DNA of 64,000 nt, from NCBI RefSeq assembly GCF_000213575.1, contig NZ_GL892006.1:330614-394613 (forward strand), written 5' to 3'. The stretch comes from Dysgonomonas mossii DSM 22836 (GTDB taxonomy: Bacteria; Bacteroidota; Bacteroidia; Bacteroidales; Dysgonomonadaceae). The notes beneath the pieces were generated by a model. It had not been told where the DNA came from, made no database searches, and saw only the letters and a program-made list of their open reading frames with translations. A program made the position numbers and the translations under genes. Numbering within the stretch: position 1 is the first letter of the stretch; every line of letters begins with the position of its first letter. Below, one piece after another: positions 1,148-2,729 of this stretch.

Positions 1148-1179
1148 TTTGGCAGTTCCCGAAGAAAGCATTACTTTTG
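1148..1179 (+). promoter_or_regulatory. Promoter of the mgtE leader transcript
   Basis: TTTG at 1148-1151, a 20-bp spacer, and TACTTTTG at 1172-1179 match the Bacteroidetes primary-sigma consensus (TTTG, 19-21 bp, TAnnTTTG). Transcription should begin near 1185, giving a leader of about 160 nt before mgtE. Confidence 0.75.
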
Positions 1180-1237
1180 CAGCGGTTTTAACGCCCCCTA
1201 CTCATTTTGGGCTAGTATTCACTAAAAATTAAGAATC

Positions 1238-1297
1238 ATGGACGAAGACCCCTATCCGAGTTACAGAAACAAAACAGAAGTATTAACCTCTCTGTAA
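1238..1297 (+). CDS. Putative acidic/proline-rich leader peptide upstream of mgtE
   Basis: A 19-codon ORF, ATG to TAA, encodes MDEDPYPSYRNKTEVLTSL. It lies about 50 nt inside the predicted leader transcript and ends 49 nt before the mgtE start. The N-terminus alternates acidic residues and proline (D-E-D-P-Y-P). Enterobacterial MgtL leader peptides upstream of the Mg2+ transporter gene mgtA also begin with an acidic/proline pattern, and nascent chains of this kind are known to destabilise ribosomes when Mg2+ is low. Both strands of two predicted RNA stems lie within or just after the codons of this ORF, so translation would control leader folding. Seen directly: the ORF, its position and its overlap with the inverted repeats. 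Inferred: that it is translated and senses Mg2+. It could be a chance ORF, although position and composition argue against that. Confidence 0.6.
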   Translation: MDEDPYPSYRNKTEVLTSL

Positions 1298-1338
1298 AGG
1301 GTCTTATTGTGATTTCCTTACAGAGATAAAGTAAGGAG
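1245..1338 (+). promoter_or_regulatory. Candidate translation-coupled attenuator: three alternative hairpins, last one sequestering the mgtE Shine-Dalgarno
   Basis: Structure A: AAGACCC (1245-1251) pairs with GGGTCTT (1299-1305), enclosing TTACAGA (1261-1267) paired with TCTGTAA (1291-1297). Structure B: TCTCTGTAAAGG (1289-1300) pairs with CCTTACAGAGA (1316-1326), 11 bp with one bulged A. Structure C: TTCCTTAC (1314-1321) pairs with GTAAGGAG (1331-1338), 8 bp including one G-U, with a 9-nt loop. C buries AAGGAG (1333-1338), which is 8 nt before the mgtE ATG. A and C can coexist; B excludes both. A ribosome held on the early DEDPYP codons would block A, let B form and free the SD. A ribosome that finishes at 1297 would mask the 5' arm of B and let C form. 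All pairings are read from sequence; the switching is inferred. Confidence 0.6.
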
Positions 1339-1346
1339 ATTGCATC

Positions 1347-2729
1347 ATGAGTGAAATAATAATCCGCCTCCAACAGCTTATTGAAGACAAAAGCTGGAAA
1401 ATCGTAAAACAAGAACTTAACAACCTCGATTCTGTTCAGATAGCAGAAATCATTGCCGACATACCAAAGTCTGATCAGATCATTTTATTCCGCCTCTTGC
1501 CACAAGAATTGGCAAAGGAGACTTTCAAACGCCTTTCTCACGACGAAAAAGAAGATATAATCGAAGGACTGGCTGTTAACATCAATGTAGTAACATCTCT
1601 TCTTAATGATCTTGATCCGGACGACCGTACGGCTTTTTTTGAAGAACTACCGGGCGAAGTGAGCCAGCGTCTGATGCAGATATTATCGGACGAAGAAAGA
1701 GAAATCACCACCAAGCTACTGGGCTTCCCAAAAGATAGTATCGGACGTCTGATGACACCCGAATACGTCGCTGTAAGACCATACTACACTGTAGAACAGG
1801 CTATAAACCATATCCGCAAGTTCGGACAAGACTCTGAAACACTAAATGTAATATACATCGTAGATGATAATTGGAAGCTTATCGCCGATATCCGCATCAA
1901 GGAAATAATTTTGGCTTCCGCCAACCAGACTATCGGCGAGCTTAGCGACAATCGGGTTATCTCGCTTAACGCATACGACGATCAGGAAGTTGCCGTAAAA
2001 ATATTCTCCGACCACGACCGTGTAGCTTTACCCGTAACGGATACCAACGGCACATTACTGGGCATTGTTACCATCGACGACGTTATGGATGTGGCAGAAG
2101 AAGAGAGCACAGAAGACTTCCAAAAGTTTGGGGGTACAGAGGGGCTCGACCTGTCATATACCAAAACATCTCTTTCCGAAATGGTGAAAAAACGTGCGGG
2201 ATGGCTAGTTGTACTCTTTTTAGGAGAGATGCTCACAGCATCAGCAATGGGCCACTTCGACGAAGAGATAGAGAAAGCCGTAGTGTTGGCCTTGTTTGTT
2301 CCACTAATCATTTCAAGCGGTGGTAACTCGGGTTCGCAGGCTGCCAGTCTTATTATCCGTGCATTGGCACTGGGCGAATTAAAGCTAAAGAACTGGTGGT
2401 ATGTGATGAGAAAAGAAATTTTATCAGGTCTGCTTTTGGGTTCTATCCTCGGTGTAATAGGCTTTACACGGATATTTATATGGCAAGAACTGGGCTTATA
2501 CGACTATGGAGAGTATTGGGTATGGGTTGCGTTGAGTGTATCCGTTTCGCTCGTATTTATTGTCTTATGGGGAACGTTCTCCGGCTCGATGATCCCCCTC
2601 ATGCTAAAGAAAATTGGATTAGACCCCGCTACCGCTTCAGCTCCGTTTGTGGCAACGCTGGTGGATGTTACCGGACTGATCATCTATTTCTCTATTGCAG
2701 CTATGTTCTTAAGCGGAAAACTACTCTGA
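1347..2729 (+). CDS. mgtE: Magnesium transporter MgtE
   Basis: Mg2+-gated inner-membrane Mg2+ channel/transporter, 460 residues, usual family length. Domain order is visible: helical MgtE_N (about 1-125), a CBS pair (about 130-255) and a five-helix membrane domain (about 275-460). Two family signatures are present: GGNSGSQAA near residue 325, and DPATASAPFVATLVDVTGL near the C-terminus, which lines the Mg2+ path. In the family, N and CBS domains close the pore when cytosolic Mg2+ is high. An AAGGAG Shine-Dalgarno 8 nt before the ATG is unusual in Bacteroidetes, where SD use is sparse, and sits in a hairpin of the structured leader. A long inverted repeat follows the gene. Single-gene transcript; convergent with the TPR gene. 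Confidence 0.95.
   Translation: MSEIIIRLQQLIEDKSWKIVKQELNNLDSVQIAEIIADIPKSDQIILFRLLPQELAKETFKRLSHDEKEDIIEGLAVNINVVTSLLNDLDPDDRTAFFEELPGEVSQRLMQILSDEEREITTKLLGFPKDSIGRLMTPEYVAVRPYYTVEQAINHIRKFGQDSETLNVIYIVDDNWKLIADIRIKEIILASANQTIGELSDNRVISLNAYDDQEVAVKIFSDHDRVALPVTDTNGTLLGIVTIDDVMDVAEEESTEDFQKFGGTEGLDLSYTKTSLSEMVKKRAGWLVVLFLGEMLTASAMGHFDEEIEKAVVLALFVPLIISSGGNSGSQAASLIIRALALGELKLKNWWYVMRKEILSGLLLGSILGVIGFTRIFIWQELGLYDYGEYWVWVALSVSVSLVFIVLWGTFSGSMIPLMLKKIGLDPATASAPFVATLVDVTGLIIYFSIAAMFLSGKLL

Follow-up and report, generated by a model that had tools for sequence, protein, structure and literature searches.

The mgtE gene in the window (the 64,000-nucleotide stretch of DNA analyzed here) is preceded by a leader that probably acts as a translation-coupled Mg2+ sensor controlling the synthesis of a Mg2+ importer and that belongs to a leader family found across the Bacteroidales. 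We also lean toward a broader view, in which the Bacteroidales possess a general and portable Mg2+-sensing leader: the ribosome would be the sensor, a D-[DE]-x-P-[YH] peptide motif would be read co-transcriptionally, a stem-hidden Shine-Dalgarno (SD) sequence would be gated, and the leader would stand before each of the four bacterial Mg2+ importer classes now known. The observation came from a first-pass annotation of the DNA. Conservation, which is the decisive evidence, confirms it as real, and the interpretation given there is supported with three amendments, concerning the inner half of one stem, the behavior of the RNA at equilibrium, and the precedent of the Salmonella mgtQ leader.

Organization of the mgtE leader

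The downstream gene was identified by the match of its product to TIGR00400 (E value of 2.8e-122) and by its MgtE_N, CBS, and MgtE domains; it is present in a single copy, with one match in the window's genome. All the elements attributed to its leader, namely a short upstream open reading frame (uORF), the SD of mgtE, and a set of competing stems, were found in place (Table 1). No SD lies upstream of the uORF at 1238-1297. In the computed fold, stem C extends to 14 pairs, between 1308-1321 and 1331-1344. The region 1238-1346 folded with a z score of -3.1 (4 of 200 shuffled sequences folded equally well), and the longer region 1184-1380 gave just -1.2 (25 of 200).

Table 1. Features of the mgtE leader, numbered from the first nucleotide of the window
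Feature	Position	Strand	Remarks
Presumed Bacteroidetes-type promoter	1148-1179	+	TTTG at 1148-1151, 20 nt, TACTTTTG at 1172-1179
uORF	1238-1297	+	19 codons, MDEDPYPSYRNKTEVLTSL, then the stop; codons 2-4 acidic, codon 5 Pro
Arm 1 (outer stem A, 5' side)	1245-1251	+	AAGACCC; within codons 3-5
Arm 1, 3' partner	1299-1305	+	GGGTCTT; overlaps arm 2 at its 3' end
Inner stem A, 5' arm	1261-1267	+	TTACAGA; in the predicted fold of the window leader
Inner stem A, 3' arm	1291-1297	+	TCTGTAA; inside arm 2
Stem B	1289-1300 with 1316-1326	+	TCTCTGTAAAGG with CCTTACAGAGA; one A bulged
Arm 2 (anti-sequestor)	1290-1300	+	Pairs with arm 3; holds the uORF stop in the window leader
Arm 3	1308-1326	+	Partner of arm 2 through 1316-1326 and of arm 4 through 1308-1321
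Stem C	1314-1321 with 1331-1338	+	TTCCTTAC with GTAAGGAG
Arm 4	1331-1344	+	Contains the SD, which is hidden by pairing with arm 3
SD of mgtE	1333-1338	+	AAGGAG; 8 nt upstream of the mgtE ATG at 1347
mgtE	1347-2729	+	Mg2+ importer/channel of 460 amino acids

The leader recurs throughout the Bacteroidales

A search with the MgtE protein returned 119 loci, and at 40 distinct loci a short ORF whose product starts with Met, Asp/Glu/Asn, Asp/Glu, any residue, and Pro/Ser was present 5' of mgtE. We aligned 35 of these loci with MAFFT (alignment A1; L002, L038, L056, L084, and L097 were omitted), and in the consensus structure, arm 2 paired with arm 3 as a hairpin. A covariance model built from this alignment (R1, mgtE leaders only) matched at least 33 of 393 genomes of the order Bacteroidales, once in each, and a second model (R2) matched at least 35 of 393. 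In the scans of 393 to 395 genomes, the best 9 candidates per genome were scored, so these counts are lower bounds; some of the matches of R1 and R2, counting those of the family scan that follows, were already part of the training alignments, for example, the window itself, L124 (equal to L068), and L130 (equal to L053). R2 gave 15 matches in 14 of the 101 genomes of the window's family. A class-wide scan detected the leader in at least 3 of 395 genomes, all three in the Bacteroidales, and a draw from the phylum detected it in at least 2 of 395, the window's own genome and one other with two copies. This same other genome was the one found among 61 in a further scan. The leader thus recurs throughout the Bacteroidales, more generally than the author of the first-pass annotation knew, and is nearly confined to this order, being almost absent outside it.

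A further search covered 88 of 151 loci, the 63 omitted being duplicates and mostly distant mgtE loci. The search gave 73 matches (15 sources had none, including L097 despite its similar uORF), representing 71 distinct sequences; 70 were kept, L069 being without its 5' end, and 57 remained at less than 80% identity. These 57 leaders are the set referred to below.

The genus has another mgtE lineage, represented by 13 loci (L004 to L016, about 47 to 50% identity), from which the leader was missing. At six of those loci (L005, L006, L009, L011, L015, and L016), an ORF starting with MDE, for example, MDEGEY..., begins shortly 5' of mgtE and overlaps its start out of frame. This ORF could be a chance occurrence or a reduced leader.

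The leader peptide is constrained at its N terminus

The acidic and proline-containing N terminus noted in the window peptide was kept across the 57 leaders, with codon-like variation. Codon 3 specifies Asp or Glu in 56 of them and codon 2 in 51 (Asn, Lys, or Gly in the other 6), and codon 5 specifies Pro in 56, with Ser in the remaining one (3 among all 70). Codon 6 is Tyr in 38 of 57, and Tyr or His follows the Pro in 41; codon 4, which is paired in arm 1, encodes Gly, Asp, Val, Ile, and others. The family motif is D-[DE]-x-P-[YH]. Base entropies at the three positions were 0, 0.13, and 1.45 bits for codon 3 and 0.13, 0, and 1.61 bits for codon 5: the first two bases are nearly fixed and the third is any of the four, which indicates that selection acts on the amino acid.

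The end of the uORF is held in register with arm 2. In 30 of the 57 leaders, the stop codon starts 2 to 10 nt ahead of arm 2; in 25 it starts 5 nt into the arm, in one 2 nt into it, and in the last 13 nt into it. In 56 of 57, the stop thus falls between 5 nt inside and 10 nt ahead of the start of the arm. For at least 56 of the leaders, termination would therefore place the ribosome over arm 2. None of the 57 has an SD 5' of the uORF.

A conserved Pro5 (56 of 57) and Tyr6 (38 of 57) would also suit a classical amino acid attenuator, in which stalling senses scarce charged tRNA (for Pro, Asp/Glu, or Tyr) instead of Mg2+, and a response of the Salmonella mgtP leader to charged tRNA-Pro is described in PMC8092293 and PMC3641672. 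However, runs of regulatory codons for one amino acid are absent from the 57 leaders, which have a single conserved Pro and a mix of Asp and Glu at codons 2 and 3. The free exchange of Asp and Glu at codon 3, which involves different tRNAs, also argues against an attenuator, as does the nature of the controlled genes, which encode Mg2+ importers and not biosynthetic enzymes. We regard this explanation as very unlikely.

Two mutually exclusive pairings covary

The pairings were evaluated in the 57 leaders by comparing each leader's own partner arms with partners swapped between leaders. The pairings of arms 2 and 3 (2:3, stem B) and of arms 3 and 4 (3:4, stem C) gave z scores of -12.2 and -12.4, respectively, and that of codons 2 to 7 with arm 2 and the linker (outer stem A, referred to as 1:2) gave -6.3; none of 20,000 permutations reached any of these values. 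Four other pairs, consisting of three controls not expected to interact and the inner stem A, showed no excess (z of -0.2 to +2.5). Of stem A as originally drawn, the outer half is thus upheld, whereas the inner half (1261-1267 with 1291-1297), with a z of -0.2, was rejected as a feature of the family.

In alignment A1, 91.4% of the cells of 2:3 were paired, compared with 41 to 60% when the pairing was slid off register, and 32 cells carried changes on both sides; neither the paired fraction nor the double changes were reached in 500 shuffles. Changes on both sides affected 7 of the 11 pairs, a value reached by 18 of 500 shuffles. For 3:4, in an alignment fitted to 2:3, 10 of 11 pairs had changes on both sides and 89.4% of the cells were paired (0 of 500 shuffles), compared with 46 to 52% off register. 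Since 2:3 and 3:4 share arm 3, they cannot coexist, yet both covary, as the proposal of mutually exclusive stems B and C implied; this is strong evidence for a switch. The first-pass annotation had staked its idea on conservation of the ORF and of the pairings among relatives. Both are conserved, and the idea stands.

The leader precedes Mg2+ importer genes of four families

The genes downstream of the leader point to its signal. At 30 loci of the Bacteroidales scan with R1, the downstream gene encoded MgtE (18 loci), CorA (11 loci), or a Mg2+-type P-type ATPase (1 locus). R1 was trained on mgtE leaders alone, its training set being free of CorA, MgtA/B, and NRMT leaders, and yet it recovered CorA and MgtA leaders too. 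Five further loci came from R2, with CorA at two, MgtE at one, a Mg2+ P-type ATPase at one, and at the last a PRC/MgtE_N/CBS protein followed by an Nramp protein. Among the R2 matches listed for the Bacteroidales, 35 of 35 precede Mg2+ importer genes (19 MgtE, 13 CorA, 2 MgtA/B P-type ATPases, and 1 NRMT operon). When all distinct matches from the order, family, phylum, and further scans were pooled, 55 of 56 were found to lead Mg2+ importer genes or operons: 32 MgtE, 18 CorA, 2 MgtA/B, and 3 NRMT-type operons, with 1 exception. The association with four non-homologous families of Mg2+ importers points to Mg2+ as the signal, and is a far stronger pointer than MgtE alone.

These assignments differ in their basis. 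MgtE was assigned to matches of the family scan from adjoining places in the MgtE protein search. Among the 18 CorA proteins, 13 scored above the cutoff of PF01544, 4 were named by TIGR00383 below its curated cutoff, and the remaining one, at L176, was named from its translation and GMN motif. One MgtA/B protein (L170) exceeded the TIGR01524 cutoff and the other (L147), which is cut by the end of the locus, fell just below it (576 versus 611 bits). For the three NRMT-type operons, reading of the Nramp gene covered two (L167, and L179 for the copy of L173), and a test of its family covered one.

The Nramp protein of that NRMT operon was closest to EleNRMT (7qia; 334 bits), the next best being MntH with 86 bits. 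7QIA is EleNRMT, a solved Mg2+ transporter of the SLC11 family (PMC8806188). At L167, L171 to L173, and L179, a PRC-barrel/MgtE_N/CBS protein is encoded under the leader, and an NRMT-like Nramp gene comes next at L167 and L179. The presence of the leader predicts that Mg2+ is the cargo of these two Nramp proteins. The leader may in this way mark Nramp-like or CorA-like genes with poor annotation as Mg2+ specific, much as the association of the M-box with four importer families was once used to argue for the Mg2+ specificity of NrmT (PMC4072509).

The sole exception among the pooled matches, L165, is the second copy in genome G035. Its leader, MNDDPYPSYSSVKTKTSTLL, precedes a gene for a CzcB/CusB-type periplasmic adaptor of RND efflux, which may hint at a link between the leader and divalent-metal efflux. 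Such a copy would be accounted for if the same switch responded to another trigger, such as polyamines, ATP or Mg-ATP, or another divalent cation, or if it relied on nascent-chain arrest instead of ribosome drop-off. E. coli corA is described as Mn2+ sensitive as well (PMC11552253), and the conservation of Tyr or His after the Pro (41 of 57) exceeds what destabilization by acidic residues would by itself require. Nevertheless, with 55 of 56 distinct matches leading Mg2+ importer genes or operons, we consider a different trigger unlikely and retain Mg2+-dependent destabilization of the ribosome as the preferred reading.

In genome G1196, outside the class, two CorA genes (L150 and L151) each have their own copy of the leader, one of which has Ala in place of the acidic residue at codon 3.

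The leader has no match among the RNA families of Rfam

The M-box (RF00380) is a single leader known to precede genes of these four importer families, an operon of an MgtE fragment and Nramp among them (PMC4072509), and the importer association of the Bacteroidales leader is, taken alone, compatible with an RNA-only metal sensor of this kind, i.e., a riboswitch whose RNA binds Mg2+ itself and whose ORF is incidental. The dominance of RNA stability in equilibrium folding (see below) is also compatible. Several results speak against a riboswitch, which we hold to be quite unlikely. A scan of 1130-1400 against Rfam gave no match even at E values up to 10, and identity with a known RNA family was rejected. 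The stretch from codon 7 to arm 2 varies in length and sequence and therefore provides no aptamer-like conserved core. Variation at positions 3 and 5 is codon-wise, and the stop codon is held in register with arm 2 in 56 of 57 leaders.

The M-box itself is an RNA aptamer and involves no peptide. It had no match at the window leader or elsewhere in the window's genome, and seven further leader-bearing loci had no M-box match at the gathering score. Among 105 Bacteroidales genomes, 2 contained an M-box, and neither is among the R1 and R2 leader matches listed. If our proposal is true, the leader does for the Bacteroidales what the M-box riboswitch does elsewhere.

The switch would be decided during transcription

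We calculated the folding of each leader with a ribosome at different positions. At equilibrium, for the full leader, 3:4 prevailed over 2:3 in 54 of 57 leaders without a ribosome, in 46 with a ribosome at codon 5, and in all 57 with a ribosome at the stop codon. With the early ribosome, 2:3 prevailed in 11 of 57, and mean SD exposure across the family rose from 0.07 to 0.17. In the window leader, 3:4 persisted at every ribosome position calculated, with an SD exposure of at most 0.01, and a switch operating at equilibrium only was rejected for this leader. Considered alone, 2:3 is more stable than 3:4 in 35 of the 57 leaders.

The outcome differed in co-transcriptional snapshots, in which the RNA ended right after arm 3 and 2:3 was scored as formed when at least 6 of its pairs were expected. 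This pairing formed in 57 of 57 leaders when the P site held codon 5, in 38 of 56 with the ribosome at codon 11, and in none of 57 with the ribosome at the stop codon. In this calculation, the geometry thus works as a co-transcriptional decision. Without a ribosome, 2:3 formed in 50 of 57 snapshots, the window leader forming 1:2 instead; the notion that an untranslated leader is OFF is consequently not general, although it fits the window leader. The original claim that a ribosome on the acidic codons frees the SD therefore fails at equilibrium in the window leader, and by calculation it holds if the choice is made during RNA synthesis.

We infer the following sequence of events, in which the uORF is translated, Mg2+ is the signal, and destabilization of the ribosome is the sensor. 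At low Mg2+, the ribosome would falter or drop off on the N-terminal acidic-acidic-x-Pro codons, covering arm 1 and leaving arm 2 free. Once synthesized, arm 3 would pair with arm 2, and arm 4 would emerge with its SD open, raising importer synthesis. At high Mg2+, the ribosome would reach the stop codon in or just 5' of arm 2 and cover this arm, so that arm 3 would pair with arm 4 and hide the SD. In the window leader, failure to translate the uORF would allow 1:2 and 3:4 to form and would also be OFF.

Relation to other Mg2+ leaders

The closest precedent is Salmonella mgtQ, described as an 8-amino-acid uORF before mgtB with Asp2, early acidic residues, and a Pro codon in stem region 1 (PMC8092293). 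Pairings 1:2 and 3:4 alternate there with 2:3, 3:4 hides the ribosome-binding site of the Mg2+ transporter gene, and control is at the level of translation (PMC8092293). The Bacteroidales family shares a short uORF with early acidic residues (codon 3 in 56 and codon 2 in 51 of 57) before a Mg2+ transporter gene, as well as the exclusive stems, 1:2 and 3:4 versus 2:3, with the ribosome-binding site in 3:4 (1:2 being supported in its outer half only). Unlike mgtQ, which is intergenic, it sits in a 5' leader that has a promoter-like box of its own; its uORF has no SD, whereas mgtQ has AGGAGG (PMC8092293); and it occurs in another phylum, before MgtE, CorA, MgtA/B, and NRMT genes, with the motif D-[DE]-x-P-[YH]. 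Judged by this architecture, the family would work like mgtQ, yet we do not file it as mgtQ. The mechanism of a peptide-coupled Mg2+ switch thus has a precedent in mgtQ (PMC8092293). No description of a Bacteroidota Mg2+ leader peptide was found in the open-license PMC literature.

In E. coli, the mgtL leader of mgtA encodes an acidic and proline-containing N terminus (EPDP), ribosomes drop off in a Mg2+-dependent manner, and the importer rises at low Mg2+ (PMC11282234). The acidic/Pro N terminus is common to both. mgtL is described as acting through Rho-dependent transcription termination (PMC11282234), whereas the covarying arm of the Bacteroidales family bears the SD, and in the window no U run follows it. 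For corL, the leader of corA, translation of the uORF is inverse to corA expression in a Mg2+-dependent manner (PMC11552253); it differs from the family by its UUG start, its Rho dependence, and fewer acidic and Pro residues, as described in the same paper. The mgtE motif of Thioalkalivibrio lies upstream of mgtE with the SD in a stem and is a riboswitch candidate restricted, according to its authors, to one genus (PMC11109978); its description there mentions no uORF. If our reading is true, Mg2+ sensing through the stability of the ribosome on an acidic/Pro nascent chain is not just enterobacterial: a different phylum relies on it too, acting on translation and in front of four unrelated importer families. 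The 57 divergent leaders are material from which the minimal destabilizing motif could be read.

Shine-Dalgarno sequence, promoter, and neighboring features

AAGGAG precedes the main gene in 43 of 57 leaders and just 1 of 33 ORFs of at least 200 amino acids in the window, taken from their first ATG. Bacteroidetes mRNAs are said to be without classical SDs (PMC7366714), and the SD of the leader is therefore exceptional. It may serve mainly as an arm of the switch. If true, the leader gates a hidden SD in a phylum that makes hardly any other use of SDs, and it makes the purpose of such hidden SDs in Bacteroidetes testable.

The leader also appears to have its own promoter. TTTG at 1148-1151 and TACTTTTG at 1172-1179 form what we take to be a promoter of the Bacteroidetes type, and transcription would be expected to start a few nucleotides downstream. 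Of 55 leaders, 50 have a TAnnTTTG or TAnnTTCG box 5' of their uORF. On the reverse strand, the count is 15 of 55, and two control regions at a greater distance upstream each gave 5 of 54. A scan for sigma-70 promoters gave no site at the leader, and site counts were at chance level.

Directly upstream of arm 2 (1278-1287 in the window; alignment A2), AAGTATTAAC recurs in two reading frames. It reads Lys-Tyr-stop in many leaders and in the window is read through (Val-Leu) to the stop within arm 2. The two stop positions suggest that the reading frame slipped between them long ago. Finally, a long inverted repeat with a T run behind it, seen by eye at 2752-2828 between mgtE and the convergent next gene, is probably a shared terminator.
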